This document shows, one piece after another, positions 6,979 through 33,052 of a DNA stretch of 64,000 nucleotides. How positions within the stretch are numbered: position 1 is the first letter of the stretch; each line of letters begins with the position of its first letter. The position numbers were made by a program, and so were the translations under genes. Source of the DNA: Methanobrevibacter millerae (GTDB taxonomy: Archaea > Methanobacteriota > Methanobacteria > Methanobacteriales > Methanobacteriaceae); NCBI RefSeq assembly GCF_001477655.1, contig NZ_CP011266.1:1348001-1412000 (forward strand). The letters are read 5' to 3'. The notes beneath the pieces are model-generated. The model did no database searches. It saw nothing but the letters and a program-made list of their open reading frames with translations, and was not told the origin of the DNA.

Positions 6979-7094
6979 ATATACCACCTTAATCAAATAT
7001 TTATAACAACAAATTAATAACAATTACTATATTAAAGAATGATAACTTTATTACACCAAGAATATAATACTATTATAATAAGGAGGGCATGTTT

Positions 7095-7973
7095 ATGGTT
7101 CAATATTGTAGAAAATGTGGAGCAGAACTTGATGATGATTCAAAATTCTGTGCGGAATGCGGATTTTTACTTGATGATGATCCGACAAAAGAAAAAACAG
7201 AAAATAATGTCAAAAGCATAACTGAGAATCAAAGTATTGAAACAGATGATAAAAATAAATTTTTAAAAAAATTACCTCTGATAATGGCCGCTATAGCAGT
7301 TATTATGGCTATTTTTGAGGGATTGGGAACACCTATGCTGATGGGTTGGGACTCTATCTTAATGGCTATTGGAGTAGGTGTTGCTGGAGGACTCGTTGGA
7401 ATATTTTTAATGGAAAAATTAAACGAACCTCTAATTGCTGCGGTTGAATTTATTGGAGTTGGAGCAATTATTTTCATGCTCATAGGACGTTTTGGAGAAA
7501 TTTCGGCGATATTTTTTATCATAACTGCAATTATCACATTATATTTCAAAGGATTTAAAGCAATCAATAAAAAGCTATGGATAATTCCAGTAATAACTGT
7601 CATAGGAATATTTCTTATTTTAATTTTAGGTGGTGCATTATATCAAATCAATGCTGAAAATTCTGTTACTGTTGGAAATCTGACACAAAACATAACTTAT
7701 GACGGATATGGATATTATACCGGATATATTACAGGAGACATTAAAGTAGATACGAATTTTGATTATTTATCCGTTAATATAAACTACTATGATAAAGATG
7801 GAAAAATAATCAATTCAGGCATTGGCTGGAATGAATTAAATCCTCAAAGCGGACAAACATACAAAATATCTTCTATGTATTTTGAAAAAACACAACCAGT
7901 AAAAGCAGAAATCAAGGTAGTTGATTCAGCAAAATCAAATAATCCTCTATATACCGAAAATATAACTATTTAG
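7095..7973 (+). CDS. Zinc-ribbon membrane protein
   Basis: An N-terminal zinc ribbon (CRKCG ... CAECG) on the cytoplasmic side is followed by an acidic linker. Then come about four hydrophobic segments (roughly residues 60-185, starting at LPLIMAAIAVIMAIF) and an outside C-terminal domain of ~95 residues beginning ALYQINAENSVTVGN. That domain has beta-strand character (YYTGYITGDIKVDTNFDYLSVNINYY) and resembles FxLYD-type extracellular domains. The start is ATG 7095, since AAGGAGGG lies 7 bases before it; ATG 7089 would be too close. Zinc-ribbon plus membrane-stalk proteins are common in Methanobrevibacter, with unknown jobs. Confidence 0.75.
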   Translation: MVQYCRKCGAELDDDSKFCAECGFLLDDDPTKEKTENNVKSITENQSIETDDKNKFLKKLPLIMAAIAVIMAIFEGLGTPMLMGWDSILMAIGVGVAGGLVGIFLMEKLNEPLIAAVEFIGVGAIIFMLIGRFGEISAIFFIITAIITLYFKGFKAINKKLWIIPVITVIGIFLILILGGALYQINAENSVTVGNLTQNITYDGYGYYTGYITGDIKVDTNFDYLSVNINYYDKDGKIINSGIGWNELNPQSGQTYKISSMYFEKTQPVKAEIKVVDSAKSNNPLYTENITI

Positions 7974-8034
7974 TGGAGTTTAAAAACTTCACATAATTAC
8001 TTTTTTTATGAATTGATATTTTAAGTAGCTTTTT

Positions 8035-8787
8035 TCATATATATTTACGCATGAATGATGTATTACACTCCAACTTATCCAATTGCTCATCAGATAAAAC
8101 ATAAGTCTCTTCCAGACTATATGCAATTTGGAGATACTCGTCGCAGGCATAATACCAATTATCATTATCGACATACATTTCATCATTTAAAACATCAGCA
8201 ATACAGTCAAGTAATTCAAAAACAACTTCATACTGATGAATTCCCATTAATTCAAAAATTTCATCACATAAAAAGTTATGTATTTCATCGGCCAAGACAT
8301 CAATGTCATAATATCCGAAATCATAATAATTCTTGCCTTTTGACTTTTCAATGATTTGTTTTAATTTATCAAAATATGGTTTTGAGTCAATTTTAGGTTC
8401 CTTTTTAAATTTGCGAATAAAATCTTCTTTAAGTACCGGATCTTCATTTAAAACATTAATGAAATACTCCCTCAAATGATTATCATCCACAGTTTTAATC
8501 AAATCCAGAAAATCACTTTCCTTTTCCAGGAGGTTATTTTCTTCAACATATCTTAAAACAGCAGCCTGATGCTTGCAATTGTCTTTTCCACAAGTGCAGA
8601 ACATGTAAGTGATTTCATTATCTTTTATATGTATACTAACATGAAAATGTGTTGATTTTTGAAGATTTGCATTTATGTAACCTTCACTTATAATAACTTC
8701 TACAATAGAGTTCATATACCAAAAGGATTGATTAATAACTTCATTTGAAAATTTATCTTCCCAGTTTAATTTATCTACTATTTTCAT
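8035..8787 (-). CDS. SWIM zinc-finger protein
   Basis: A 250-residue protein with a SWIM zinc finger near residues 55-75: FCTCGKDNCKHQAAVL, the CxC...CxH pattern. SWIM fingers bind DNA or proteins and often occur in helicase-linked or transposon-linked genes. The rest is acidic and helical, with no motif I know. The start is ATG 8787, with AGGGTGAT upstream. The frame stays open into the CRISPR trailer (to 8931), but that part is array sequence, not protein. Its 3' end converges on the zinc-ribbon membrane gene 62 bases away. Confidence 0.8.
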   Translation of the reverse strand: MKIVDKLNWEDKFSNEVINQSFWYMNSIVEVIISEGYINANLQKSTHFHVSIHIKDNEITYMFCTCGKDNCKHQAAVLRYVEENNLLEKESDFLDLIKTVDDNHLREYFINVLNEDPVLKEDFIRKFKKEPKIDSKPYFDKLKQIIEKSKGKNYYDFGYYDIDVLADEIHNFLCDEIFELMGIHQYEVVFELLDCIADVLNDEMYVDNDNWYYACDEYLQIAYSLEETYVLSDEQLDKLECNTSFMRKYI

Positions 8788-10829: not shown

Positions 10830-13800
10830 TCACTTTCCACAAATCTTTTTATAAGAACAGCCACTGCAGTCTGCACATTCAGCAGCAAATTGATCATTTC
10901 TAATCTTTTCAGCAGTTTCTCTCAATTCAACTTTCAGCTCTTCAATATAGTCATCATCTATATCAAAGGAAAACAATTTATTACCTTTCTTATACTTGAT
11001 TGCATAAATCTGAATTTCATCAATTTTATGGCCGTCAAATTCTTTGTTCTCATCACGTAGTGCCATCACATAGAAATGCAACTGCTTTCTATACTTAGCT
11101 AAAAACTCTTTTCCAACAAGTGAAGTGTTCTTATAATCCAAAATACCCAGTTTACCGTCTTTTTCATATATCAAATCGACTATTCCTGAAAATGTATAGT
11201 TTTCACCTTTGATATAGAACGGATATTCACTGTTTACTATAAATAAATCGTTTCCGACTTCATGATAGTATCTGATTACGTCTTTAGTAATCGTTTCCAA
11301 CTTAACATTATATTTATCAGGCTGCTCTTCTTTAAATTTCAAATTGGCCTTTTCAAATAATAACTCAACAGTTCTAGAAACTTCCTCGTCACCAACATAT
11401 TCATTATCATTTGCCTTGATTTTTTTATTTACAATCTCAAGTGCTGAGTGAATGAATATTCCATCATCGATTTCTTTTTTCTGACCCACATTTAATCCAA
11501 GTTCATTGGACAACTTGTATTTAAATGGACACTCATTGTAATTTTCAAGAGCTGTGAAACTTAAGTTTATAATTTCATCTTCCTCATCTACATGACTTGG
11601 ATTTAAAATGTTAATTTCCATATCACTTAAATCAATTTGCCTGCAGTATTCATTCATAGTGATTACATCACCGACACACTCCGGTGCTTCGCCTATGCTT
11701 GAAAGTATCAGTTCGTCTTCTGCACGTGTTTTTGCAACGTATATTACTCTTTCCTCTTCCTCGATATGTGAACTTTCAGCATCACCGTCATACTTGTCAA
11801 ATCCTAAAAACTCTTCAGGTATATATTCAACGGATTCCACATCCACTTCCTTAAAGGCTGTTGGAAAACCGTTTTCTCTGAGGGATGCCAGTATCACTAC
11901 CGGAAACTCAAGGCCTTTTGATTTGTGTACGGTCATAATCTGGACTGCATCCTCATCCGGTTTATAAGAGTCAAGTTTTTTAAGTGAGTTTTTAATAAAC
12001 CAGAACGCTCCTCTTAAACTCCTGTCATACATCACCTCACCGTAAACTGATATTGATGGAATGATGGCTGTTAAGTTATTCACTGTTTCCTCGTCATTTA
12101 CGACCAAATCATAATCAAGATAACCTGTAATGTCACATAAAAGTTCAAAGTAAACTTCTGAAACTGTTGGTCTCTCATAATATTTCTCGGCATTGACTTT
12201 AACTTTCAGTTCGTTCAGTTTCTTAAAAAATACCAAATCATTCTCATCTGTTACACTATATTTAACCAAATTCTCATCCGAAAGTATTGGCTTTTTGACT
12301 CGGCTGAATACTTCATCCTTACGCTTATTGTCTTTGGTAAATATTCCATTAAATTTCTTTATTCCTCTTCCCCAGCCATCATTTTCTGAACAAACTGTTT
12401 TGTCCATTTCAATGACTTCTTTTTCAAATCTATCCTGCAATTCATTTAAAATACTTTTAGTATCATCAGACAGTTCAAAGAGCGCATTTTCACCTGTTAA
12501 TGTTTTTAAATTCAGCCAGTCTGAAGTTTCACGGGGAACAAATGTATAGTACGGGTCATCATCCTGAATTAAGTGATACATCAGTGTTAATATATATTTT
12601 AAATCGTCATTTTCAGCCAGATCTCCAGTTCCTCGAACCTGATAGTTAATATCATTTTTCTCAAAAAGTTCAATCAGTGTGTTAAAGCATGATGATGAGC
12701 TTTTAACTGACCTTAGAAGTATTCCAATATCAGATAGCATCATCTTTTCATCTTCAGTAATATGTCTGATGACATCAAGTATGTTTTGGGCTTCGGCCTT
12801 TTTATCTTCGCTTGTCATATAGTAGACTTCATTTGTCTTTCCGCTTCCGCATTTTGCAGTTATAAAATCATCCTCTGATTCATGATGAGGCATGATAAAG
12901 TCCTGTGAAAAGTCAATTATCTCAGCAGTTGAGCGGTAATTTGTTGATAAAAACACCTCTAAAAACTTATCTGAGTATTCATCTAAAAGAACCTTGAAAT
13001 AGTTTTTGTTTGATCCTCTAAATCCGTAGATGCTTTGGTTAATATCCCCGACTACTGTAAATGAATCAGTTTCATCACTTTCAATGAACTTTTTAAATAG
13101 CTGCATCTGAACGGGATCAGTATCCTGAAACTCATCAATTAAAATATTGGTGTATGGAGGCATATAACCTTCATCCATTTTTTTAAGCGCCTTTATCTGC
13201 ATCTGATTGTAGTCAATTGAATTTTCCCTTTCAAGCAAATCCAGATATGTCTTAAATGATTTGGCAATCTGGATTTGTTTTGCATTATTATAGGAATCCT
13301 TAAAGACAGTATTTTCATTTGCCTTATCAATTTCTTTTATCTCATCAGCCGGAAATGCACCGTCGTTTTCATCCATATAAGTAGAGACAAACTCAACAAA
13401 ATCAGAAGAAACAGGAAAATTATCTTCAAGATAATCAGCCAATCTTTCAGTATCTACATTGAATGTTGAGTATTCATCATACTTTCCAATAACTTTGTCA
13501 ATTTCATAGCTTCGCAAATGTGATTCCTTTTCAAAGCCCAAATCCTTCAGATGCTTTTTAATAAAGAGATTCTGCTTGTCGCCTTCTGCAATGATGTCCA
13601 AACCGACAGTACCAGTATCCTCAAGAATTTTCAAACAGAAGGAATGTATTGTTGAAATCTGCATTTTCTGCACATCACTTGCCGGAATCTCACCTTCAAT
13701 CAGCCTGTCTTTAAGCTCATCAGCAGCTTTTGTTGAAAATGTAATAATGAGAAAGCTTTCAGGCTTTACGCCTAATTCCTTTACCATATATTTAACTTTT

Positions 13801-13910
13801 TCAACAATTACACGGGTCTTTCCGGAACCAGGTCCTGCCTGAACGCTTAAAAACTTATCACCATCATACTCCACAATTGTCTTTTGTTCCTCATTCAATT
13901 CAATTGCCAT
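10830..13910 (-). CDS. UvrD/PcrA-family ATP-dependent helicase with C-terminal RecB-like nuclease
   Basis: A 1026-residue SF1A helicase fused to a PD-(D/E)xK nuclease, an AddA/RecB-like plan. Helicase motifs seen in order: LNEEQKTIVEY (Q motif), AGPGSGKTR (Walker A, ~residues 25-33), LIDEFQDTDPVQ (II), VVGDINQSIYGFRGS (III), STNYRSTAEI (IV), MTVHKSKGLEFPVVIL (V) and IYVAKTRAEDEL (VI). The C-terminal ~250 residues contain GIFIHSALE, GILDYKNTS (nuclease D...DYK) and a Cys set (C at NECPFKYK, then CADCSGCSYKKICGK), as in the Fe-S nucleases of the AddB/Cas4 group. ATG 13910 has TGGAG upstream. It lies 23 bases after a HIRAN-domain ORF, so it is co-transcribed. Likely a DNA end-resection, repair or defence enzyme. 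Complete. Confidence 0.92.
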   Translation of the reverse strand: MAIELNEEQKTIVEYDGDKFLSVQAGPGSGKTRVIVEKVKYMVKELGVKPESFLIITFSTKAADELKDRLIEGEIPASDVQKMQISTIHSFCLKILEDTGTVGLDIIAEGDKQNLFIKKHLKDLGFEKESHLRSYEIDKVIGKYDEYSTFNVDTERLADYLEDNFPVSSDFVEFVSTYMDENDGAFPADEIKEIDKANENTVFKDSYNNAKQIQIAKSFKTYLDLLERENSIDYNQMQIKALKKMDEGYMPPYTNILIDEFQDTDPVQMQLFKKFIESDETDSFTVVGDINQSIYGFRGSNKNYFKVLLDEYSDKFLEVFLSTNYRSTAEIIDFSQDFIMPHHESEDDFITAKCGSGKTNEVYYMTSEDKKAEAQNILDVIRHITEDEKMMLSDIGILLRSVKSSSSCFNTLIELFEKNDINYQVRGTGDLAENDDLKYILTLMYHLIQDDDPYYTFVPRETSDWLNLKTLTGENALFELSDDTKSILNELQDRFEKEVIEMDKTVCSENDGWGRGIKKFNGIFTKDNKRKDEVFSRVKKPILSDENLVKYSVTDENDLVFFKKLNELKVKVNAEKYYERPTVSEVYFELLCDITGYLDYDLVVNDEETVNNLTAIIPSISVYGEVMYDRSLRGAFWFIKNSLKKLDSYKPDEDAVQIMTVHKSKGLEFPVVILASLRENGFPTAFKEVDVESVEYIPEEFLGFDKYDGDAESSHIEEEERVIYVAKTRAEDELILSSIGEAPECVGDVITMNEYCRQIDLSDMEINILNPSHVDEEDEIINLSFTALENYNECPFKYKLSNELGLNVGQKKEIDDGIFIHSALEIVNKKIKANDNEYVGDEEVSRTVELLFEKANLKFKEEQPDKYNVKLETITKDVIRYYHEVGNDLFIVNSEYPFYIKGENYTFSGIVDLIYEKDGKLGILDYKNTSLVGKEFLAKYRKQLHFYVMALRDENKEFDGHKIDEIQIYAIKYKKGNKLFSFDIDDDYIEELKVELRETAEKIRNDQFAAECADCSGCSYKKICGK

Positions 13911-16915: not shown

Positions 16916-18397
16916 TTAATGAATTACTTCTTTAAATTTCTCCCATATCTTTACCATTGCATAGGTATCTAACTTACAATATTCAAGCAAGGCTTTTCTG
17001 ATTTTAGCCTGCTCATCAGGTGTCTTTTCATTTAAGCTTAAAAATGCATTTGATGCCTCATCACCCTTATGAATCAAAGACAATTCAGAATAGTCAAGTT
17101 CCTCATCATCGGGATAAAGTGCAGGTAGGACATATTTGATTGAATATGACCCTTTCATTTCTTTTGTATAGTAATCCCTGTTTTTAAAGGGTATCATCAA
17201 GTCAACCATATTGTCATTGAATCTGTCCATTTCATCTTTCAGCTCAGGATACATTTTTGCAATTTCCCTGTTTCTTGATGCTTCAAAGGCCTTGTTGTAT
17301 ACGATTACACTTCCGTTTTCGGGCATGTCACGAATCATGCTTAAAGCAAAGTTTCTGATTAGGTTCATATCATCGGCTTCAGCGAGAAATTCTTTATGCT
17401 CCAGTGGTCCTCCCTTTTCGTGAATAATATGCAATGAATACTGGAAAGGAATCTGCTGATACGGTTTTGTTCCGACGTATTCCGGAATTGCATACTGACA
17501 TGATTCATAGTCAATAAAATAAAGAGGATATTTAAGAGAATCTAAAACTTCTCCAATAGCTTTCCTGTTGATTTTAGACTCACGGTTATTTAATTCAAAA
17601 TCAATCTGCTCAAGATATTTCGGATTTAGCTTTTCATTTTTTAAATCTTCAAATGAAATTTTGCCGTCATAATACTTTTCAAGCTTTTTGGATTTAAACA
17701 TTCCTGCAATGTCAAAGACATTAGGTTTTGGCAAATCCCTTGTACAGTAGTCCCAGAAAACGCAGTCATATGGCTTAAAGCAGTGCATTCCAATATCTTT
17801 TACAGGTTCGCTGTCATTAGCTTCCATAAACTCATTGAAAAATTCAATATTATTTTTTATTTCCGTCTGCTTTTTTAGAACTTCATGAGTCACATCATCA
17901 ATTTTAAAAAGCTTGTCAAGTTCCAGTTCACTTTCTCTTATGTATTCATTGTTAATATAGACAATTGATACCTTTTTAACGTTCAATCCAAGATTTGACA
18001 GTACAAAGTACTGATATGCTGCATCGTCAATGTAGATATCATCGATTTTTGTAGAGCTTTTAACCTCATAGATTTCCACACCATCAGCATCATTTTTTAA
18101 AATATCAACACTGCAGAAATTGTTTTCAAAACCGAATGACGCTTCGGTAATGACATTAGGCTTATTTTTCAACAATTCTTCAGTTTTATCTATTGAAACT
18201 GTTAAATCAATGTCAAACGGAACATTAACATAATCTCCAAAAAGTCCCTTTGCAAGCTCACCTACCTCACGGCCCTTTTCTAAAACAGCATCATTGCCAT
18301 CTATTGAATAATCAGGCAAGTATTTTTCCAACCATAAAATCTTTTCACACTGCACGCCCTTGCAATAGCGGGACTTTGATAAATGTATTTTACTCAT
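16916..18397 (-). CDS. DUF2779 protein: RecB/Cas4-like nuclease plus DnaQ-like exonuclease
   Basis: A 493-residue protein of the DUF2779 family. The N-terminal half resembles a Cas4/RecB nuclease: an early Cys (SRYCKGVQCEKILWL), VDIL...GVEIYEVKSSTK (the D...ExK site) and a second Cys group CFKPYDCVFWDYC, likely an Fe-S cluster. The C-terminal half (from LYFIDYESCQYAIP through SVIVYNKAFE to LEYCKLDTYAM) has the DEDD pattern of a 3'-5' exonuclease. ATG 18397 has AGGGTTAT upstream. Members often occur alone in archaea and bacteria and near defence genes. It is 107 bases after the PH/SHOCT gene, possibly the tail of that operon. Confidence 0.85.
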   Translation of the reverse strand: MSKIHLSKSRYCKGVQCEKILWLEKYLPDYSIDGNDAVLEKGREVGELAKGLFGDYVNVPFDIDLTVSIDKTEELLKNKPNVITEASFGFENNFCSVDILKNDADGVEIYEVKSSTKIDDIYIDDAAYQYFVLSNLGLNVKKVSIVYINNEYIRESELELDKLFKIDDVTHEVLKKQTEIKNNIEFFNEFMEANDSEPVKDIGMHCFKPYDCVFWDYCTRDLPKPNVFDIAGMFKSKKLEKYYDGKISFEDLKNEKLNPKYLEQIDFELNNRESKINRKAIGEVLDSLKYPLYFIDYESCQYAIPEYVGTKPYQQIPFQYSLHIIHEKGGPLEHKEFLAEADDMNLIRNFALSMIRDMPENGSVIVYNKAFEASRNREIAKMYPELKDEMDRFNDNMVDLMIPFKNRDYYTKEMKGSYSIKYVLPALYPDDEELDYSELSLIHKGDEASNAFLSLNEKTPDEQAKIRKALLEYCKLDTYAMVKIWEKFKEVIH

Positions 18398-18503: not shown

Positions 18504-19250
18504 CTAATCGATTTTTGTTCCGCATTCACTACAAAACAGTGAATTTTCAGCAAGTTCTGCTCCACATTTTTTACAATTTGCGATATCTTCCTCTTTTAAA
18601 AGTTCGTCCTTTAAATAAGAGAATTTTTCATCAGTTATTATTCCTTGTTTATGAAAAGATTCTAATCGCTTTAAGTTACTGATTTTGTATGATTCATCCA
18701 ATTTTTTCAATTGAGAATAATCTATTTCTAAACCCCATCCATCTTCTTCATAAAGTGCTCCACTGATACGTTTGCTTAAAACATCCACACAATAATCCAA
18801 AATATGTTCTGAAATAGTGTATCCACATGTTAATTTTAAAAATATTTTTTTGTCTTTGAGCAATGTTAAAAGACCCATAGATTTTTTGTTTTTATCTTCG
18901 AGTTTTTCAAAAGAAACTATATCCTCATAAGGTATTCTAATATCACTTCCATCCATAGATCCATTTTTAAATACTATTCCTTTATCGACTACCTGAAATA
19001 AAGTAGTTATTATCCTATTTTCTTCATTTTGACTTGTTCCACTAGTTGCAGCCAAACCGATAACACCAAAAGCCAATGTAGCAACACCTTTTTTAGTACC
19101 ACTGCTCCCAGATGTTTTCAATTGTTTTTCAGGAAGTATAACTTCACATTCAACACCTTTAAAAATATCATTTTCTTCTAAAAATTTCTTTATTTGCTGT
19201 TGTTCACGTTCTTCCTCAGATAATCCATCATCTCTATCAAAAATTCCCAT
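18504..19250 (-). CDS. PH-like/SHOCT/zinc-ribbon protein
   Basis: Order of parts: a short acidic N-terminus (MGIFDRDDGLSEEEREQQ), a PH-like domain (about 35-170: VECEVILPEKQLK, KGVATLAFGVIGLA, VVDKGIVFKNG, DIRIPYEDIVSFE), a SHOCT motif (LKRLESFHKQGIITDEKF) and a C-terminal zinc ribbon (CKKCGAEL...CSECGTKID). ATG 19250 with GGTGA is the start; a TTG at 19298 is unlikely. It follows the helicase by 44 bases and looks like the last gene of the four-gene cluster upstream. Three relatives lie at 26972, 27997 and 35157. SHOCT and PH modules often mark membrane- or oligomer-binding regulators; the role here is unknown. Confidence 0.75.
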   Translation of the reverse strand: MGIFDRDDGLSEEEREQQQIKKFLEENDIFKGVECEVILPEKQLKTSGSSGTKKGVATLAFGVIGLAATSGTSQNEENRIITTLFQVVDKGIVFKNGSMDGSDIRIPYEDIVSFEKLEDKNKKSMGLLTLLKDKKIFLKLTCGYTISEHILDYCVDVLSKRISGALYEEDGWGLEIDYSQLKKLDESYKISNLKRLESFHKQGIITDEKFSYLKDELLKEEDIANCKKCGAELAENSLFCSECGTKID

Positions 19251-19294
19251 AATTTCACCATCAAATACTTTACTCCCATATCTATTCACAATAA

Positions 19295-22200
19295 TCAATT
19301 TAAATTTTTATAATAAGGACTTAGATTAATAAACAACTCTTTAATATCCTTTTTATCAATTCCACCAATAATAGAATCTATCAATTCTTCCTGTCTGGCT
19401 TGACCCAAGGTTAACCTATAAAGTGATAATATTTGAATTAATCTATCATATCTAATTTCATCACGGCTAAACGGATATGTAGGCACGATTCTTTCAATCT
19501 TTATAGTATTATCATTTATTCCCCAATAAGGGATTAAATCAGAGCTTCCACCAACTTTTTCCTTTTGACTAGCTTTTTTAAATATTTCCTTCCAAATATT
19601 CTTTTTAAAATCAGACTTATACCTCTTTGCCAGATTCTGTCTAATTGCCAAACATTCAAATCTATTAATTCTTCCCTCACGCTGCTCCAAATCAATTGGG
19701 TTTGACGGAAGGTTCCAATGGACAATTCGCCTACAATAATTATGAAAGTCCAGACCTTCTTGGCCTATTGATGTGGAAGCCAAAACAAATGGCCTGAATG
19801 GCATGTTAAATGCATCACGAATGGATTTTTTACGGTGGGTATCCTTTTCATCACTTTTTCCTTTAGTAAATGATACTGCAAAATGTGTTCTTAAATAAAC
19901 ATTTTCATACTCTTTATTGCACATACGCTTTTTAAAATTTTCCAAAGTATCAACATCATATGAGGCAGTCCGGAATTCAAATGAATTAATGAATTTCCTA
20001 TTAATTATTAAAAGTCTGTCTTCATTATTCTTATCCAACCCATTTGATAATAAATGAACATATTCATCAAATACTGCTTGAAGATTACCCTGTTTTGAGT
20101 ATTTCAATACGTTTTTCCAGTACGCATCATCTGAATTTTCACCGAAATTCAAATCTATTACTGCAATTGATTCAGGCAAATTCATACGGTCAATAAACTT
20201 TCTTCCAATTTGTGTTGTAGTGTATAAAAAATTATTAATTATCAAATTATAAGGCAATTCCTTTTCATATGCCCTGTATGCACATATTGCAGGAGAAGCC
20301 ATAGCCATATCACATAACACATTTTCCAAATCATCAGGTTTTTTACCCAATTTTCCTCCAAAACCATTATACTGTTTTTTAAGTTCCTCATAATGTGTTA
20401 AAAATCCTTTTCTAAAATAATAACCAGATTCAACCAAATCATCCGATTGCTTTATCCATAAATCAACATGGGATGGTGAATCCAAAAGCATTGGAGCTAA
20501 ATAATACCATCTGAAATCATCAAAAAGAGTGTTTTCCCATTCAATTTTTTTCAAACCATCCTGAATTTTAGTTTTAACCTCATCTTCAATTTGTTTTAAG
20601 CTCAAACCCCTATTCAAACAATCCAAAGGATCATACACATCAGCTAAAAACTTTGATGGATATAAAAGTGAAAATAATGTCATTTGCGTTGCTTTATTAT
20701 CTTTTAGAGAAAATGTCATTCTAGGGCTTGGATATCTACTTTGTGAAAAATAATTAATTTTACGACTTAATTGACCTATTGTTTCACGTTCAATTTCATA
20801 GGATACCAATGAAGAAATCATTCTTGGAACCATTTCCCATGATGAAAATATCAATGTTTTAGAAAAATCTTCTGTACCTTCAAATGCGCCTGTCAATTCA
20901 TAATATGGTAAAGATGGAGGCACCCAAAGCAAGTTAGCTGCATTATTTTTTAAAACATGACACATTAAATTTTCTAAACGAGCATTATTTGATGAAATTA
21001 TTTTATATTCATTTATATCATCTTTATTTAGCCATAATGTATCCTTTTGAATCATATCAAACTCATGGTGGTCATTAAAGTATCTCTCAATTTTCGTTTT
21101 TAACTGATAATGTTTCATGAAAGACATCAAATATGGGGATGATTTAACATAATCAATCGGCACATTAGCATTTATTCCCATTTCATCCAGCAATTTTTGC
21201 ATATCCATATAGGATACAATATCCTCTTCAATTACTTTCAGCTGATTTTCAACATCACTGCTGTCAATGATATCATCCATTTTGTCTTCAGTTATTCTTT
21301 CAGTTCTGCAGATATTTTTAAACATTGCATCTTCAGCTTTATTTTTTGCAATGATAAATGAAGTTTTATCCTTGTTGATTTCTTTTAGTTTAATTGAATA
21401 GTCATTCCATATTTCTCTAAATTCCTGCTTTTTTTCATCAGTGTTGTTTAAAAAGTCAATAACATCAAAAAATTCCTTATAGTGTGTATCCAATTGTTCT
21501 TCATCAATTTCATCCAATGTTGAATACATTTTATAAGGAGTTGCTGAAAGCATTAATATCCTTAAATCATCAGAATTGAAGAATTTTTTGGTTAATCTAT
21601 CCATATCTGAGTTTTCTTCACTATCCAATAAATATTTGAATCTTTGAAATTCATCCATGATGATTAAATCCGGATCCAGTTTATCCAGTGAAATATCTGC
21701 AAATAATAATCTCAATTTGACAATATATGGTTTTACTTCTTTTTTATCAAACTTCGTTTTTCTTATAATTTGACCGAAAGGTTCCGATAACTCATTTTCT
21801 TTAAGTTTTTCAGTGATTTTAGAAATCATGTATTTTATATATTTTCCATTGGATTTCTGGTCACATTCAATTACCTGCTTTTCAAACCAATCACGAGGAC
21901 CATCCCACCATTTGACACCAAATCGTAATATTTTTTCTAAATTTCGCATATATTCTTTAAATTCAGGAACTCTTTTTAATATTGCATACATCAGCGCCCT
22001 TTCATCAACTGTTCCCTGTGAATTACTTACCTTGAAGGATGTTTCGGGAGTTAATGGAATTAATTGAATGTATTTATTTAAAACATTCTCATCATTTTCT
22101 TCATTGAAAATATTTAAATGCTGCATTGATAATCTGGATGTATTTGTACTTTCAGCCTTGATTTCATTGACAATTCTTAATTTGTCAAGATTTTGCTCTG

Positions 22201-22459
22201 CTATTGTTGAATTAGAACAAATATATACAATTTTAACCAAATCATCATTCTCATCTTTTCTTAACTTGGCAAATTTTGCTATTGTTCCTCTTGCAACTAG
22301 TGTCTTTCCAAGTCCAACTTCATCGGAAACCAAGATACGATTTTGACCGCAACGATAAAGATAATCGATTCTCTCAACAGTAGCTCTTTGAAAATCCTTT
22401 AGTTCATCCATTACTGTTTTTTCAATTTCATCCAGTCGATTAACAATTTTACTCATCAT
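19295..22459 (-). CDS. SNF2/DEAD-type helicase of a PLD-DUF6361 cluster
   Basis: A 1054-residue SF2 helicase. Seen: LKDFQRATVERIDYL (Q-like), VSDEVGLGKTLVARG (Walker A), LIIMDEFQRFK (DExx box), LMLSATPYKMYS (III), then after a long central insertion the second RecA domain with VLASTSIGQEGLDFHNYC (V) and DLEQREGRINR (VI). The pattern is nearest to the SNF2/RapA-like helicases of defence islands. ATG 22459 follows GGGTGAT and overlaps the PLD gene by 11 bases, so the two proteins are made together. It probably translocates on foreign DNA or RNA for the nuclease partner. Complete. DISARM also pairs a large helicase with a PLD protein, but its DUF1998 and methylase genes are not next to this one. 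Confidence 0.88.
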   Translation of the reverse strand: MMSKIVNRLDEIEKTVMDELKDFQRATVERIDYLYRCGQNRILVSDEVGLGKTLVARGTIAKFAKLRKDENDDLVKIVYICSNSTIAEQNLDKLRIVNEIKAESTNTSRLSMQHLNIFNEENDENVLNKYIQLIPLTPETSFKVSNSQGTVDERALMYAILKRVPEFKEYMRNLEKILRFGVKWWDGPRDWFEKQVIECDQKSNGKYIKYMISKITEKLKENELSEPFGQIIRKTKFDKKEVKPYIVKLRLLFADISLDKLDPDLIIMDEFQRFKYLLDSEENSDMDRLTKKFFNSDDLRILMLSATPYKMYSTLDEIDEEQLDTHYKEFFDVIDFLNNTDEKKQEFREIWNDYSIKLKEINKDKTSFIIAKNKAEDAMFKNICRTERITEDKMDDIIDSSDVENQLKVIEEDIVSYMDMQKLLDEMGINANVPIDYVKSSPYLMSFMKHYQLKTKIERYFNDHHEFDMIQKDTLWLNKDDINEYKIISSNNARLENLMCHVLKNNAANLLWVPPSLPYYELTGAFEGTEDFSKTLIFSSWEMVPRMISSLVSYEIERETIGQLSRKINYFSQSRYPSPRMTFSLKDNKATQMTLFSLLYPSKFLADVYDPLDCLNRGLSLKQIEDEVKTKIQDGLKKIEWENTLFDDFRWYYLAPMLLDSPSHVDLWIKQSDDLVESGYYFRKGFLTHYEELKKQYNGFGGKLGKKPDDLENVLCDMAMASPAICAYRAYEKELPYNLIINNFLYTTTQIGRKFIDRMNLPESIAVIDLNFGENSDDAYWKNVLKYSKQGNLQAVFDEYVHLLSNGLDKNNEDRLLIINRKFINSFEFRTASYDVDTLENFKKRMCNKEYENVYLRTHFAVSFTKGKSDEKDTHRKKSIRDAFNMPFRPFVLASTSIGQEGLDFHNYCRRIVHWNLPSNPIDLEQREGRINRFECLAIRQNLAKRYKSDFKKNIWKEIFKKASQKEKVGGSSDLIPYWGINDNTIKIERIVPTYPFSRDEIRYDRLIQILSLYRLTLGQARQEELIDSIIGGIDKKDIKELFINLSPYYKNLN

Positions 22460-24215
22460 TAATCACCCGCTTAAATGTATCATGCAATTCCTCAAATCCT
22501 TCAGGAATGACATTATCTTTAGATAATGTTTTAATTAAAAACTCCAATTCAGAGAATTTTTCAGGCTCATACATTGCTGCTTTTAACATCTTCTCATACA
22601 ATTCAGGCAATTCTACGGTAAAGTTAGTATCAGATTTATCTGAACTGTAATCACCATCTTCAATGGAGCTTAAAATATATTCATCACCAAGTAAAAAGGC
22701 AACATACCTGATGAATGCGGTCTTATCATTTATTATGTTTGAAACAACATCATTTTGTCTATCTTCCGGCAGATTATCAACAGGGATTTTAATAATTCTC
22801 CTTATAGAATCATCATCTTTTGTTATGGTAATGATAAAAAATTCAGACAATTGAACTTTATCCAAATCTTTAAAAATGATTTTTCGAGAAAACTTAACCT
22901 TTTTATTTGACAGTAACGGCTGTATTTCAATATCATAGTCATCATAATCTTTATCGAATTCAACTTCCAAATCAAAAGAATCATTTCGTGAAATAACATT
23001 AGCACTTGAATTTAATCTGACTATTTGCTTAACGATTAAATTAAGGTCATTGCCATCATTTTCAGGCTCTGATTTGATGGTGTCCATATTAACCATTTGA
23101 AAAGGATTATCCTTACCATCATTGAAAATGTTTTTCAATACTTTATTAATGTTAAACCTGCGTTTTTTGGCCCAAAGTTTAATCATGAACTCAACATTGC
23201 CAAATAATGCATTGTGAGATGCATTTAGTGATCCCAAATATAAATCAACATAATTTCTTTTTTCAACAATATACATCTTGGCATGAATGTCCTGCTTTTG
23301 AGAATATTCCTCGGAAAGTAATGATTCCCCATCAACAACATCATCCTTTAGTGCGTAAAACTCAAAATTATCCAATTTTTTATCTTTAAGAGGACTGAGT
23401 GAATTCAGTCTTGTGATAAGAATAGCTTTGGAATTTGGTTTTTTACGATTATTGAAATCAATTATGACATCCTTAGACAAAAACGGAGACATTATTAAAA
23501 GATTTTCAAGAGAATTGCTATAGAACAGCTGATGATTTTGAATGGAATATTCAGCACCAACACCGTTTAAAATAAAATCAAAACCCTCAAACACATTTGA
23601 ATCCAATTTGAATTCAACATTTTCCAATTCATTCATTATTTCTCTTATCTTATCCGTTTTATCACCATCAGTAGAAAAACCAGATAAAAATTCAAGGAAT
23701 TTTATTAATGGATTGTTTTTGTCTGTTTTGGAATCTGTAATGCTACCATCCATAGAAAAGCTTAAATCCCAATTTCTATCAAATGTCAGATTCCTGCTTA
23801 AAACAGCAAATCTGTATAATATCTCTTTTTTATCATTAATATAACGCAATACCCATACTTTAGGATGAAATGATGCATATCTGGAATATTCAACATTATT
23901 ACTGTTTGTAACCTGAAATACCATATCTTCAAGAAGAATATATAATGTAGTTGTTTTGTTTGGAAGTTTTATCTGTCCGCTTTCACAGAAAAGTGCAATT
24001 TTATCTCCCGTGCTTCTTAAAGCTTCAAGCAAAAATATAGGATTTTTGTTTAACTCTGTATCATTTTCAGCTGATAAACCTAATGATATGGATGCCCCTA
24101 CCAATGCATCCAAATCCAGCGAGTAAGTTGCACCAATTGCAAAATCCAATTGATAATTTTGTGGAGGAGACAAAATACTTCCATAATCTAGACGGTCTTT
24201 TTTAGGATTTAACAT
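22449..24215 (-). CDS. Phospholipase D-like nuclease
   Basis: A 588-residue protein with two HxK half-sites: FHPKVWVLRY followed by LSRNLTFDRNWD (about 125-155), and QDIHAKMYIVEK followed by LYLGSLNASHNALFGN (about 308-340). The pair forms the active site of PLD-superfamily nucleases. The C-terminal ~250 residues have no motif I know. ATG 24215 follows GGTGATTAG, and the stop of the DUF6361 gene abuts it; its own end overlaps the helicase. Very likely the nuclease subunit of a complex with that helicase. Confidence 0.85.
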   Translation of the reverse strand: MLNPKKDRLDYGSILSPPQNYQLDFAIGATYSLDLDALVGASISLGLSAENDTELNKNPIFLLEALRSTGDKIALFCESGQIKLPNKTTTLYILLEDMVFQVTNSNNVEYSRYASFHPKVWVLRYINDKKEILYRFAVLSRNLTFDRNWDLSFSMDGSITDSKTDKNNPLIKFLEFLSGFSTDGDKTDKIREIMNELENVEFKLDSNVFEGFDFILNGVGAEYSIQNHQLFYSNSLENLLIMSPFLSKDVIIDFNNRKKPNSKAILITRLNSLSPLKDKKLDNFEFYALKDDVVDGESLLSEEYSQKQDIHAKMYIVEKRNYVDLYLGSLNASHNALFGNVEFMIKLWAKKRRFNINKVLKNIFNDGKDNPFQMVNMDTIKSEPENDGNDLNLIVKQIVRLNSSANVISRNDSFDLEVEFDKDYDDYDIEIQPLLSNKKVKFSRKIIFKDLDKVQLSEFFIITITKDDDSIRRIIKIPVDNLPEDRQNDVVSNIINDKTAFIRYVAFLLGDEYILSSIEDGDYSSDKSDTNFTVELPELYEKMLKAAMYEPEKFSELEFLIKTLSKDNVIPEGFEELHDTFKRVINDE

Positions 24216-25397
24216 CTAATCACCATGCTCCTCACTTTGATAAATATCTGCAATAATATCTTTTGCAATTGAAAATCTGTAATCCAATCTTTTGCCGGCA
24301 AACCATTCATTTGTATCATATTCACCGGGATGTGCAGTTTTAGATCTGTTGACACCTTTCAAAAAGATTTCACGATTTTGAATAATATTTTTCAATTCTT
24401 CAAAATCTTCATTTTTCATAGCTTCACAGGAATTTTTTAAAAAGATTCTAAGATAAGGATTGAAAACGCCTAAAGAAGTCATAATACCATCAATATCAAT
24501 ATTTGAAATTTCATACAAATTCAAATTATCGAATTCCCTAATAGCTTCCTCATTTTTATTTTCAGACACAATCAGATTATAAACTACCCTTAAAGCAAAA
24601 CAAAACTCGCTAAATGAATTAGCATTATTGTAATTATTTTTAATTTCATCAGGAAACATGTAGATAATCGCTTGCAAATCGCTGAAAGAGGAAATATCCA
24701 AAAATTCATGAATATCATATTTCAAAACATAAGCCATTAGTGAATCAGGACAAGTTTCTATAATTTGATTTTTTAAAAATTGTCCTTCTTCAAAGGTCAA
24801 GTTTATATCCAAATCGTCAATCCAATCTCTCTTATATGAAGGAATATTGAATAAATGTATTTTTTGAACATCTCCAGCATTTTTATCATCATGCGCTTCA
24901 TCGCTGCTATTTCCTAATTTAACAGCACCTAATGTGTTTTGCTTTTGAATAGCAATGAACTTGATATACTGGTCAATTGACATTTTTCCTTTAAAAAAGC
25001 CATATTTTCTAAGACCCACCCAATAGATGCTGGCAGGAGTTCGAGATACCCAAGAGCCACCATGAATAGATCGACTTCCAATAACACCCACCTCATCAGG
25101 ATTATTTTCAAGAAATATATGGGCACATTCTTTTTCTGTTTTGTCAAATGTTTTCTTTAATTTAAAAAAGTCATACTGATTGTTAAATTCCAAATCTCTT
25201 AATGCATAAGGAACAATGAAAAAGTATTTGGCTCTAGTTTGGATTGTAGAAGTCCCTGGAAAAAACAAATCTGAATAAGCATCACGAATCTGTGAAATTC
25301 CCAGCTCATCAAGAACTCCTTTTTCCCCCAATAAATCTAAAACAGAAAGTATTTTACTTCTTTCATCTTTTGAAAAGTCAATCCATCCTATTTCCAT
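24216..25397 (-). CDS. DUF6361-family protein
   Basis: A 393-residue protein beginning MEIGWIDFSKDERSKIL, then GISQIRDAYSDLFFPGTSTI and TRAKYFFIVPYALRDLE, which I recognise as the DUF6361 pattern. Also seen: a strongly conserved-looking IGSRSIHGGSWVSRTPASIYWVGL and a C-terminal basic stretch. No known enzyme motif. It abuts the PLD gene and starts 28 bases after the EEP gene. In defence-island genes of this kind it may be the sensor or specificity part; that is inference from position only. Confidence 0.75.
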   Translation of the reverse strand: MEIGWIDFSKDERSKILSVLDLLGEKGVLDELGISQIRDAYSDLFFPGTSTIQTRAKYFFIVPYALRDLEFNNQYDFFKLKKTFDKTEKECAHIFLENNPDEVGVIGSRSIHGGSWVSRTPASIYWVGLRKYGFFKGKMSIDQYIKFIAIQKQNTLGAVKLGNSSDEAHDDKNAGDVQKIHLFNIPSYKRDWIDDLDINLTFEEGQFLKNQIIETCPDSLMAYVLKYDIHEFLDISSFSDLQAIIYMFPDEIKNNYNNANSFSEFCFALRVVYNLIVSENKNEEAIREFDNLNLYEISNIDIDGIMTSLGVFNPYLRIFLKNSCEAMKNEDFEELKNIIQNREIFLKGVNRSKTAHPGEYDTNEWFAGKRLDYRFSIAKDIIADIYQSEEHGD

Positions 25398-25425
25398 AAT
25401 ATCCCAAATATTAATATATAATTTA

Positions 25426-26715
25426 TTATTTATTTTTAAAATATCTTTTACCCAATAGCCATAAATATCTATCTAACTCTTTCAGTGAATATTGTTCTAA
25501 TGAATAGTAATGAGCAAATTGATGTAAGATATCATTAAATTTAACATAATCCTTTAAATCATTATTAGAAAATTTAGCGAATTTATCTTTTTTTCTAAAA
25601 TACCTCAATATCTTATCAACATAACTGTCATATATAGGAAATCTATCGGGATTGTGATGTGAACAATATTTTGTAGCAAATGAATAAAATCTCCTATTTA
25701 ACTCCTTAACATCAGCAATATCATTTACTAATGTTAAATCACCCTCATCAAGTCTTTTATCAATATCCAATTGATAAATATGTTTACCAACTGTAAAAAT
25801 AGAAAATATCTGAGTACTATAAAAATCATTTAAAGTACTTGATTTAATTAAAATATCTTCTATTAATTTATTCTCAGGTATCAAATCGAAAAACAACTTA
25901 TCAAGACTATTTTCCTGATTAACATAATTTTCTAAAGAATACCATTCACCAATATACTTCTCAACTTCTTCAACAGTTGGTGTTGGTATAACAAAATCTT
26001 CGTTTTTGACAGTATTATAACTCGTATCAAAAACTATAGGAATATGATCGCTTAATTTTATCCATTTTTCCCCATCACCAATTTGCAAATCATCAATCCT
26101 GCCTTTTTTGGCAAATACATGATCCAAATGGAATGGCTTGTCCAAATGTCTGTACATGAAAAATGTAGGCTGACTTTCTTCGCCTTGCGTTTCATTATTT
26201 AGATAGTGATATGTGTCTGTAAGACCATATTCAGATAGCTTTTCAATTACTTCATTAACATTTTTAGCGTGAGCTCCCTTTAAACGCACATCACAGTTAA
26301 AGTCACCACAAATTATCATGTCTTCATTAAAGAATCCGGAATCTTTATGATTATCATAATATTTAGTAATTTCCTTTGGATAATAAACTGTTTTAGTGCC
26401 CCCCATATCCGGATTGGTCCAGACTCCCAAAAGATTAAATTCATCATTTACCCTAACAGGTATGAAATATCTAAGTCCATTATCATCCAAATCAGCCAGT
26501 TCCAGTTTCACATCATCACGAGCAAATATTCCAAGGCCATAATACTGGTTTTCACCAACCCAATAGCAATTGGAAGCAAAATCTTTATATTCTTCTGAAT
26601 CAATTATTGATGGATTTTCACATTCCTGAATCACATAGATGTCTGCATTCTCTTCAAGAATTGCTGGAAACTTTTCGCTGAATTTACCGTTGCAGTTCCA
26701 AGATATTATTTTCAT
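25426..26715 (-). CDS. Endonuclease/exonuclease/phosphatase-family protein with C-terminal helical domain
   Basis: Residues 1-235 are an EEP (DNase I/ExoIII-like) metal-dependent phosphodiesterase: ISWNCNGKF, DIYVIQECENP (catalytic E), MIICGDFNCDV (D-x-N), HLDHVFAKKG and LSDHIPIVF (final D-H). The remaining ~195 residues are helical with SHHNPDRFPIYDSYVDK and no catalytic motif I know. ATG 26715 has GAGGTG upstream. It is the first gene of the EEP-DUF6361-PLD-helicase run (28-base gap), so a role in that system is likely; a stand-alone DNA-repair role is the alternative. Confidence 0.85.
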   Translation of the reverse strand: MKIISWNCNGKFSEKFPAILEENADIYVIQECENPSIIDSEEYKDFASNCYWVGENQYYGLGIFARDDVKLELADLDDNGLRYFIPVRVNDEFNLLGVWTNPDMGGTKTVYYPKEITKYYDNHKDSGFFNEDMIICGDFNCDVRLKGAHAKNVNEVIEKLSEYGLTDTYHYLNNETQGEESQPTFFMYRHLDKPFHLDHVFAKKGRIDDLQIGDGEKWIKLSDHIPIVFDTSYNTVKNEDFVIPTPTVEEVEKYIGEWYSLENYVNQENSLDKLFFDLIPENKLIEDILIKSSTLNDFYSTQIFSIFTVGKHIYQLDIDKRLDEGDLTLVNDIADVKELNRRFYSFATKYCSHHNPDRFPIYDSYVDKILRYFRKKDKFAKFSNNDLKDYVKFNDILHQFAHYYSLEQYSLKELDRYLWLLGKRYFKNK

Positions 26716-29102: not shown

Positions 29103-29921
29103 TCACTTCCTATTTTTTAAGATATCATTTAACTTTAAAATCTCATTGCCTAACATTTCATTTTGTTCTTGCAATTTTGAATTTTCCCTTTTTATTTCCT
29201 TAAGCTCTTCACTTATTGAATTTAGACTATCCATAATAGCTTCCTTATCGACCTTTTCATCTTCAGAAATCAGTCTGTCTGTCAAATAAGAGGATATTGC
29301 TGCGGTTATCATGGAAAATATAAATATTCCAACAATTATTAAAATCAATGCAATAACCTTTTCATTGAATGTGACAGGTGTAATATCACCATATCCGACA
29401 GTGGTCAATGTTACTACCACGAAATAAAAATCATCGAATAAACCATAGGAAGGACCGAAAAAATACATCAATAGAGTGAAAAATAACACAGTTAATATTA
29501 TTCCAAGACCTATCCTGTCGAGGTTACTTTTTTTAAGGAATATATTGAGGCTGTCAAAGAATTTGCTGAATAAAACAATTACACGTAAAAACTTAAGCAG
29601 TCTAATCAGCCTTAAAAAACGGGCTGATGAAAATATTGCAGGTAAAATCAAATCAAATGGAATAGCCGCAATCAAATCTATCCAATTGCTTTTCTGCTTT
29701 AAAAATACCTTTTTGGGTTTCGACAAGTAAAAATTAATGCAAAATTCACCTAAAAGAATAAAACATACCATCAAATCAAAAATATATAAAGCCCATGCAA
29801 TATCTGAAGGAAGTTCAAAACAGATTAAAAGCAAAATGCAAACTATATCTATTAGAACCAATATGTTTAATATAAACCATGCGATATATCTTGCATTATA
29901 TTCCTTACCTCTAAATTTCAA
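29103..29921 (-). CDS. Voltage-gated potassium channel (six-helix type)
   Basis: A 272-residue ion channel: S1-S4 voltage-sensor helices with arginine-rich S4 RFLRLIRLLKFLRV, then S5, the pore loop with selectivity filter TTVGYGDITP, S6 (LILIIVGIFIFSMITAAIS), and a C-terminal coiled coil (EAIMDSLNSISEELKEIKR...) for tetramer assembly. It starts at TTG 29921 behind GGTGA. It resembles KvAP-type archaeal channels. The next gene starts 5 bases after its stop. Confidence 0.9.
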   Translation of the reverse strand: MKFRGKEYNARYIAWFILNILVLIDIVCILLLICFELPSDIAWALYIFDLMVCFILLGEFCINFYLSKPKKVFLKQKSNWIDLIAAIPFDLILPAIFSSARFLRLIRLLKFLRVIVLFSKFFDSLNIFLKKSNLDRIGLGIILTVLFFTLLMYFFGPSYGLFDDFYFVVVTLTTVGYGDITPVTFNEKVIALILIIVGIFIFSMITAAISSYLTDRLISEDEKVDKEAIMDSLNSISEELKEIKRENSKLQEQNEMLGNEILKLNDILKNRK

Positions 29922-30081: not shown

Positions 30082-32478
30082 ATGATGAAAATGAAACAAA
30101 ATGCATTTACAGGAAACAACACTGATTTTTACAAACAGCTGAAAAAAAGCATCAAAGATGCTGATAGCATTGATATTATTGTTTCATTTCTTATGAAATC
30201 CGGCGTCAAACTGATCATTGATGATTTGAGGGATGCTGTTGACAACAACAAAAAGATTCGCATCCTGACAAGCAGATACCTGAACATCACACAGCCAGAG
30301 GCATTAATTCTACTAAAAGAATTAAAAGACATTGACTTAAGATTCTACTCAAATAAAAACAAGAGTTTTCACCCAAAAGCATACATTTTCCACAATAAAG
30401 ACTATGATGAAATCTATGTGGGTTCATCAAACCTTTCAAAAGGAGCTTTAACTGATTCTATCGAGTGGAACTACCATTTTACAAAATCCCAAAACGAGGA
30501 TGACTTCAATCATTTCCAGGAAACTTTCAATGATTTATTTGAAAAACATTCCATCGAAATCACAGATAAGATTCTGAATGAATATTCCAAAAAATGGAAA
30601 AGGCCAAAGCTTCAATTAAATCAAAGGGACAATGAATTATTTGAACCGAACGGTGCACAACTTGAAGCATTATACAACTTAAACAAATCTCGTGAAGAGG
30701 GTTATGACAAGGCACTTGTTGTTGCAGCTACAGGTATAGGAAAAACATATCTTGCTGCATTTGATGCAAAAAATTATGAAAAAATTTTATTTTTAGCACA
30801 TAGAGAAGAAATCATAACACAGGCTTCAGAGAGCTTTAAAAACATATACCCAAATAAAACCCAGGGATTTTACTACAGCAAAGATAAAGATATCGAAAAA
30901 GACATAATTTTCGCACTGGTTCAAAGTCTAGGAAAAAAGACAAACCTCAATGAATTCAAAAGGGATTATTTTGACTATATTATCATTGATGAGTTTCATC
31001 ATGCTGTAGCAGACAATTACAAAAGAGTTCTTGATTATTTCACACCAAAATTCCTTTTGGGCCTTACTGCAACACCTGAAAGGCTTGACAACAGGGATGT
31101 ATTTGCACTGTGCGACTACAACAATGTATATGAAATCCGATTAAAAGAAGCAATCAACAAAGGATATCTCTCACCATTCAGGTATTATGGAATCTATGAC
31201 GATACTGTTGACTACAGCCAAATCAATATGAAAAACGGAAGGTATGATGAAAAGGATCTTGAAGAAAAGCTGATGATTCACAAAAGGGCAGAACTTGTTT
31301 TAAGACATTTTCTTAAATACAATTCATCTTCTGCAATAGGTTTCTGCTCATCAAGAAATCATGCGGAGTATATGGCTAAATATTTCACAGAAAATGACAT
31401 TCCTTCAGCTGCTGTATACAGCGGAAGCCAGGGAGAATATACAGAAAACAGAAAGGATGCAGTAGAAAAACTCAAAAATAACAAACTTAAAGCTTTATTT
31501 ACAGTAGACATGTTCAATGAAGGGGTTGACATTCCATCAATCGATACTGTTTTATTTTTAAGGCCGACACAGTCACCGACGATATTTCTCCAGCAATTGG
31601 GAAGGGGACTTAGAAAAGATGAAAACAAAAAATACCTGACTGTCCTTGACTTTATCGGAAACTATAAAAAGGCAAATATGGCGCCGTTTCTTTTAAGCGG
31701 ATATGACTACAACACAAAAACACTTTTAAATGAAAGTGTTATGGAGTTTGAATATCCTGATGATTGCTATATTGACTTTGACTTTAAGCTTGTTGACTTG
31801 TTTAAAATCCAGGCAACTCAGGAGCTTAAAATAAAAGATAGAATCGTCCTTGAATATGAAAGTATAAAGGCTAAAATCGGCAAAAGGCCAAGCCGTGTTG
31901 ATCTGTTTTTAGGAATGGATGACAGCATTATCACATCAATGAAAAAATCATCTAAAATAAACCTTTTTAGAGATTACCTGAAATTTTTAGACGACAATGA
32001 TGAATTAAATATTGAAGAAAGGGAATTCATATCAACGCCTGCCCATGACTTTTTAAAAACAATCGAAACGACAAACATGACCAAATCATACAAGATGCCC
32101 ATACTTAAAGCATTTTATAATGATGGAGAGATAAAGTTAGACATAACAGAAGATGATGTCTATAAAAGCATGAGGGAATTCTACTCATACAAGTCAAATG
32201 CAGTGGACATGCTCAAGGACAAATCATCCAAAAACTTCGCTTCATGGCAAAAAAAGCAATACTTATCTCTTGCAAAAAGAAATCCGATAAAATTTCTGCT
32301 TAAAACCCATAGCGAGTTTTTTATAAAAAAGGAAGGATATGCAATAAGCCTGTCAGATGAACTGAAAGATTATATTAATTTGGATTCATTCAAAAATCAT
32401 TTTAAAGACATTATAGAATACAGAACCCTATACTATTACAAGACAAGATATGAAAAGAAAAGTGATAATTATGAATAA
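30082..32478 (+). CDS. PLD-domain DEAD/DEAH-box helicase
   Basis: A 798-residue fusion. Residues 1-190 are PLD-like, with one HxK site FHPKAYIFHNK followed by VGSSNLSKGAL. Residues 195-560 are an SF2 helicase: VVAATGIGKTYLAAF (Walker A), YIIIDEFHHAVADN (DEFH box), LLGLTATPERLD (III), FTVDMFNEGVDIPSIDT (V) and QQLGRGLRKDENK (VI). The C-terminal ~240 residues are family-specific and helical. A TATA-like string at 30041-30050 lies ~36 bases before the ATG and no ribosome site is seen, so the mRNA may be nearly leaderless. It overlaps the methyltransferase by 8 bases. Likely a nucleic-acid-degrading defence or repair enzyme. Confidence 0.87.
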   Translation: MMKMKQNAFTGNNTDFYKQLKKSIKDADSIDIIVSFLMKSGVKLIIDDLRDAVDNNKKIRILTSRYLNITQPEALILLKELKDIDLRFYSNKNKSFHPKAYIFHNKDYDEIYVGSSNLSKGALTDSIEWNYHFTKSQNEDDFNHFQETFNDLFEKHSIEITDKILNEYSKKWKRPKLQLNQRDNELFEPNGAQLEALYNLNKSREEGYDKALVVAATGIGKTYLAAFDAKNYEKILFLAHREEIITQASESFKNIYPNKTQGFYYSKDKDIEKDIIFALVQSLGKKTNLNEFKRDYFDYIIIDEFHHAVADNYKRVLDYFTPKFLLGLTATPERLDNRDVFALCDYNNVYEIRLKEAINKGYLSPFRYYGIYDDTVDYSQINMKNGRYDEKDLEEKLMIHKRAELVLRHFLKYNSSSAIGFCSSRNHAEYMAKYFTENDIPSAAVYSGSQGEYTENRKDAVEKLKNNKLKALFTVDMFNEGVDIPSIDTVLFLRPTQSPTIFLQQLGRGLRKDENKKYLTVLDFIGNYKKANMAPFLLSGYDYNTKTLLNESVMEFEYPDDCYIDFDFKLVDLFKIQATQELKIKDRIVLEYESIKAKIGKRPSRVDLFLGMDDSIITSMKKSSKINLFRDYLKFLDDNDELNIEEREFISTPAHDFLKTIETTNMTKSYKMPILKAFYNDGEIKLDITEDDVYKSMREFYSYKSNAVDMLKDKSSKNFASWQKKQYLSLAKRNPIKFLLKTHSEFFIKKEGYAISLSDELKDYINLDSFKNHFKDIIEYRTLYYYKTRYEKKSDNYE

Positions 32479-33052
32479 CTTTTATGATGATAATGCAGAG
32501 GAATTCTTTAAAGGAACAGTAAACGTAGACATTAGCTATTTATATGACGACTTTTTAAGTCTGATTCCAGATAACGGGAACATCCTTGATGCAGGATGCG
32601 GATCCGGAAGAGACTCAAAGTTTTTCATCTCTAAAAACTATAACGTAACATCAATCGACGGATCTTATGAAATGTGCAGGGTTGCAGGCGAATATCTTGA
32701 ACGAGAAGTCATGCACATGCAGTTTCAGGAAATGGAATTTGAAAATGAGTTTGACGGAATCTGGGCTCTAGCATCACTATTGCATGTGCCGTCTGATGAA
32801 ATCAAAGATGTTTTAAAAAGATTTAAAAACGCATTAAAGGAAAATGGAGTAATTTACGCATCATTCAAGTACGGCGAGTTTGAAGGAGAGAGAAACGGAA
32901 GATACTTTAATGACATGGATGAGAAATCATCAAATGAGCTATTCGAAAAGTTAGGCTTTGAAATCATTAAAACCTGGACAACACAGGATGCAAGAAAAGA
33001 CCGTGAAGATGAAAAATGGCTTAATATCATTGTTAAAAAAATAAATTTTTAG
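32471..33052 (+). CDS. SAM-dependent class I methyltransferase
   Basis: A 193-residue Rossmann methyltransferase: NILDAGCGSGRDSKFF (motif I, SAM glycines), VTSIDGSYEM (acidic loop), FDGIWALASLLHVP (motif IV region). ATG 32471 follows AAAGTGATAATT and overlaps the helicase end by 8 bases; the frame's earlier ATG lacks a site. The substrate is unknown: there is no DPPY/NPPY, so not an N6-adenine DNA methylase of the usual kind. The tight coupling to a PLD-helicase suggests a joint function. Confidence 0.85.
   Translation: MNNFYDDNAEEFFKGTVNVDISYLYDDFLSLIPDNGNILDAGCGSGRDSKFFISKNYNVTSIDGSYEMCRVAGEYLEREVMHMQFQEMEFENEFDGIWALASLLHVPSDEIKDVLKRFKNALKENGVIYASFKYGEFEGERNGRYFNDMDEKSSNELFEKLGFEIIKTWTTQDARKDREDEKWLNIIVKKINF

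Follow-up and report, generated by a model that had tools for sequence, protein, structure and literature searches.

The DUF6361, PLD and helicase genes described here very probably form an Azaca (ZacABC) anti-phage operon, which is carried by a gut archaeon and headed by a chimeric first gene. They lie in a 64,000-nucleotide stretch of the Methanobrevibacter millerae genome, called the window below. The host genome is a single contig of 2,543,538 bases. The features of the locus are as follows.

25426-26715, minus strand: EEP gene, an ORF of 429 aa and the first gene of the operon
26023-26715, minus strand: nuclease domain of the EEP type (ExoIII/AP-endonuclease-like), encoded by the first gene as residues ~1-231
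25429-26022, minus strand: C-terminal all-helical domain (EEPc), without family name, residues ~232-429 of the first gene
24216-25397, minus strand: ZacA (DUF6361), an all-helical protein of 393 aa (PADLOC PDLC03828)
22449-24215, minus strand: ZacB, a PLD-superfamily nuclease of 588 aa (PADLOC PDLC03829)
19295-22459, minus strand: ZacC, an SF2 (SNF2/RapA-like) helicase of 1054 aa (PADLOC PDLC03830)
18504-19250, minus strand: PH-like/SHOCT/zinc-ribbon gene (SHOCT gene), 44 bases 3' of ZacC (Zn_Ribbon_1 6e-7)
16916-18397, minus strand: gene of the DUF2779 family of Cas4-like nucleases, further downstream in the same orientation (DUF2779 1e-43)

Identity and conservation of the three-gene core

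The EEP gene is followed on the minus strand by the DUF6361, PLD and helicase genes. An earlier note on this DNA had given them as head to tail with spacings of 28, 0 and -11 bases, and the coordinates of the ORF list agreed. It had also placed the SHOCT gene 44 bases further on. The ORF list starts this gene at a TTG at 19298; the start of its homologue in another genome (G006) corresponds to MGIFDRDD (19250). The homologue's start makes 19250 most likely the true one, so that the gap to the helicase is 44 bases, as had been claimed.

The earlier note knew of no named system with this gene set, but the PADLOC comparison supplied a name for three of the genes. The ZacA model PDLC03828 matched the DUF6361 gene with an E value of 1.3e-85 over residues 3-388 of 393. 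The ZacB model PDLC03829 matched the PLD gene (1e-149) and the ZacC model PDLC03830 the helicase gene (E value 0, 1041.6 bits), both over the full length. The EEP gene had no PADLOC match. The Pfam analysis gave Exo_endo_phos at 6e-8, DUF6361 at 2e-18, a sub-threshold PLDc_2 at 4e-4, and DEAD, Helicase_C and ResIII on the helicase at 1e-6 to 1e-7. We take the names ZacA, ZacB and ZacC to be those of the Azaca system (ZacABC), which Millman et al. 2022 reportedly described. Published papers name ZacC as the Azaca helicase (PMC12278908) and mention a PLD-like domain in Azaca (PMC10952713). A 2026 review still gives the mechanism as unknown (PMC12926258), and we found no published mechanism for Azaca in the literature.

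Genome contigs were scanned with the aligned ZacC sequences of the window and of four plasmids. Of more than 500 loci matched, the 80 best were kept and the four plasmid loci added, which makes 84. The order A-B-C was found in 74 of these 84 loci, and no other order occurred among the 74, where the Zac genes normally abut or overlap. In the remaining 10 the three genes were not all resolved, most having a contig end inside or just before the operon. Because ZacABC is preserved across phyla, the gene array is not a product of chance.

The catalytic motifs were also conserved. ZacB contains two invariant HxK...N motifs, H117/K119/N142 and H311/K313/N331, which were 100% conserved in 74 sequences. 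In ZacC, G51-K52-T53, D269-E270, S305-A306-T307 and QR..GR..R (926-933) are intact, and the Walker A, DExx, SAT and motif VI residues were conserved in 76 sequences. The AlphaFold 2 model of ZacA is all-helical (pLDDT 89.5) and had no fold match in the PDB.

The flanks of Azaca are variable and of the defence-island type, with HsdR/HsdM/HsdS, WYL regulators, macro-domain and ADP-ribosylglycohydrolase-like genes; these neighbours were named from sequence, except on the annotated plasmid L002. Macro-domain and ADP-ribosylglycohydrolase-like genes, called by eye on the sequence and by clustering, recurred beside Azaca in L010, L012, L024, L039, L040, L057, L067, L069 and L078.

The chimeric first gene

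The first gene encodes two domains, and its EEP part is limited to residues ~1-231 (TIGR00633 xth 6e-10, below that model's cut-off). Free-standing EEP genes were present in 15 of 36 genomes of the same genus, and ZacA was absent from all 15. These Methanobrevibacter nucleases of the ExoIII/AP endonuclease type have about 230-250 aa and are up to 81% identical to window residues 1-231. They end after the EEP domain, whereas the window copy alone runs on into the helical domain. Since the EEP half is resident in the genus and the C-terminal half is distributed differently, the first gene is, judged from its sequence, a lineage-specific in-frame fusion of a genus-resident EEP nuclease with a mobile helical domain.

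No family in Pfam, PADLOC or PHROGs corresponded to the helical domain, and it was absent from all 60 relatives searched. It carries the motif FYSFATKYCSHH...PIYDSYV, and a relative of it matched DUF6308 weakly (0.003). Its AlphaFold 2 model is all-helical, with a pLDDT of 88 and a pTM of 0.82. The top five PDB matches of this model in Foldseek were HhH-GPD DNA glycosylases (Ogg2, MagIII, EndoIII), none of them significant (E values of at least 0.27, TM scores of at most 0.49). An hhalign profile comparison with 30 EndoIII-type sequences gave a probability of 0.2%. Because the structural matches were not significant and the profile comparison was null, no fold is claimed for this domain. The glycosylase reading was set aside as improbable: besides the hhalign result, the HhH-GPD-like Lys/Asp spacing is lost in distant members.

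The helical domain adjoined ZacABC in 4 other loci of the 74 (from the best 80 of more than 500 matches plus four plasmid loci), at 9-88 bases in three of them:

L051: helical domain divergent from ZacABC, 81 bases away
L012: helical domain 88 bases downstream of ZacABC, frame disrupted
L069: remnant of the helical domain, adjoining a recombinase-like fragment and 9 bases 5' of ZacA
L072: helical domain in the fourth upstream ORF from ZacABC

Two of the six Methanobacteriaceae Azaca loci had the helical domain, which may therefore be of importance in this lineage.

The earlier note had treated the EEP gene as a member of a four-gene candidate defence system. That the four genes form a new defence system, with EEP as an essential second nuclease, is now highly unlikely. 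The tight same-strand spacing, with 28 bases between the EEP gene and ZacA, speaks for such a system, as does a Methanobrevibacter locus (L236) with EEP on the Azaca contig, about 6.5 kb away and behind McrBC. Besides the window and L236, no Azaca locus examined had EEP nearby. However, 65 of the 74 resolved loci (among the best 80 of more than 500 plus four plasmid loci) offer 1.5 kb or more of sequence upstream, and EEP adjoined ZacA in not one of them. The same holds for the five further Azaca loci of Methanobacteriaceae, two of whose contigs end ~0.6 kb or less upstream of ZacA. The earlier note had named absence of the EEP gene from all related loci as a refutation of its reading, and this is essentially what these loci show. 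The 15 genomes mentioned above have EEP alone, without Zac. Scans of viral contigs with EEP, with ZacC singly and with the ZacC alignment gave no matches. The EEP fusion gene is probably an add-on or cargo outside any new system; as an open frame at the head of the operon in a finished genome, it may have a working role here.

Azaca could instead exist as a variant with plug-in accessories, in which the helical domain docks on Azaca or on its DNA substrate and carries any N-terminal partner. We consider this unlikely. Its N-terminal partners do vary (none, DUF7669, DUF7662 and unnamed domains), and the four loci listed above place the domain beside Azaca. When 50 Azaca genomes were searched, 8 had a match to the helical domain, and 4 of these had it at the Azaca locus, against ~0.05 predicted by chance placement in a span of ~20 kb, a rough estimate that ignores defence-island clustering. 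This enrichment can be explained by ordinary clustering in defence islands, and the domain is commoner away from Azaca than beside it, prophages included. It was matched in 17 of 397 genomes of one Lachnospiraceae family, and the best 12 of these places, when inspected, were near Azaca only in the already known L012 genome. Azaca was found in none of the 17 viral-contig loci carrying the domain. The last two results also weakened the candidacy of the helical domain as an Azaca-specific fourth component. A further reading makes the domain a mobile module, carried by prophages and serving defence or superinfection exclusion, that swaps its N-terminal partner and in some lineages docks effectors onto Azaca, here the EEP nuclease; we regard this as rather improbable. 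In its extreme form, with fold support that is not significant, the helical domain may be glycosylase-like and EEP may cut the resulting abasic sites. An Azaca operon with a lineage-specific fusion gene at its head is still the reading that we prefer.

The helical domain recurred in viral contigs (L211-L227) and in L143 and L169-L176; its sites include tail regions of prophages and the neighbourhood of serine recombinases. In the viral contigs L223-L225 its neighbours are tail-type genes of the other strand, and such a placement, judged from the neighbouring sequences, would be typical of cargo genes. The part that may be worth keeping is this mobile, unnamed helical domain, which sits by Azaca, prophage tail genes and serine recombinases, with differing partners or none.

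The free-standing Methanobrevibacter EEP gene repeatedly adjoined a DUF5655-containing gene, possibly as a separate two-gene module. The pairs were co-directional at 12-14 bases in L110, L113 and L124 and divergent in L116, L120-L122 and L236; the DUF5655 family was tested in L110 only, and the other loci were assigned by clustering or by eye. The window also contains an Ion_trans ion-channel gene (29103-29921), whose cluster recurred near free-standing EEP in L112, L114 and L121. In L114 the Ion_trans gene is co-directional with EEP, which begins 67 bases after it.

Neighbouring genes and origin

The SHOCT gene had no match in any related Zac locus (best 80 of more than 500 plus four plasmid loci), and a 66% homologue lies beside a free-standing EEP gene in G006. 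It is a probable local cargo gene. The idea that Zac had been inserted into a resident locus, separating EEP from SHOCT, was considered and rejected. G006 has the two genes adjacent but in the opposite order, so it offers no simple empty site.

The DUF2779 gene was likewise not found near other Zac loci among the best 80 of more than 500 and the four plasmid loci. A homologue with 65% identity was present upstream of ZacABC in the Methanobacteriaceae locus L237 (11574-13067). L144 has a DUF2779 relative (6652-8160) with the helical domain after it, and no Azaca. Other defence-type genes of the window are listed below.

3388-5310: Schlafen group 3 helicase
10830-13910: UvrD helicase with PD-(D/E)XK nuclease
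30082-32478: PLD-ResIII helicase, a type IV restriction enzyme according to PADLOC
32450-33052: methyltransferase

In a ZacC tree built by a quick method, with SH-aLRT as its only support, the window and two other methanogen loci (L008 and L051) formed one clade (SH-aLRT 99). This clade was nested in a group of 15 rows that otherwise consisted of gut Bacillota (SH-aLRT 99). The nesting fits a transfer from gut bacteria to methanogens, and the Azaca operon was probably acquired by a Methanobrevibacter-like archaeon from gut Bacillota.

Possible mechanism and comparison with known systems

The domain content suggests how the operon might work. ZacC, an SF2 ATPase, would sense invading phage DNA or translocate on it, and ZacB, a two-HKD PLD enzyme, would cut it. 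ZacA would serve as an all-helical adaptor that bridges or recruits; as ZacA has no recognisable fold relative, this role is a guess. The EEP fusion would be an optional second, metal-dependent phosphodiesterase, and the core activity would be independent of EEP. As a whole, this mechanism of ZacC on DNA, ZacB cutting and ZacA bridging is tentative, and we give it somewhat less than an even chance on sequence grounds. The layout had earlier been described as that of an anti-phage system. This stood for the two-HKD PLD protein and the SF2 helicase, which belong to Azaca, but not for EEP, which falls outside the conserved set. One candidate new defence system can be struck off: it is already named Azaca, and its EEP gene is probably a lineage-specific add-on.

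A resemblance to part of DISARM had also been pointed out. It extends to the helicase and PLD superfamilies, which DISARM and the window operon have in common, and to nothing beyond them. The helicase matched DrmD at 4e-13 over ~60 residues and, in NCBIfam, at 4e-16, far below the cut-off, and the PLD protein matched DrmC weakly (1e-3). The ZacB and ZacC matches are full-length and far stronger than these short, partial ones, and on this ground a DISARM variant was ruled out. DrmA, DrmB (DUF1998) and the DISARM methylase were not found among the scanned genes adjoining the window operon. A diverged DISARM-like locus is therefore extremely improbable.

The window differs from the other Azaca loci examined in two genes unseen there, the upstream EEP-helical fusion gene and the downstream SHOCT gene. 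Its archaeal host is also unusual for Azaca. In a search of the phylum, 6 of 152 genomes had ZacA, and a 2026 paper citing Millman et al. counts 2 Azaca carriers among 382 complete genomes of archaea (PMC13321033). With Azaca the window operon shares the pairing of a PLD-like protein with an SF2 helicase and, beyond this pair, all three ZacABC genes at full length and in the same A-B-C order.
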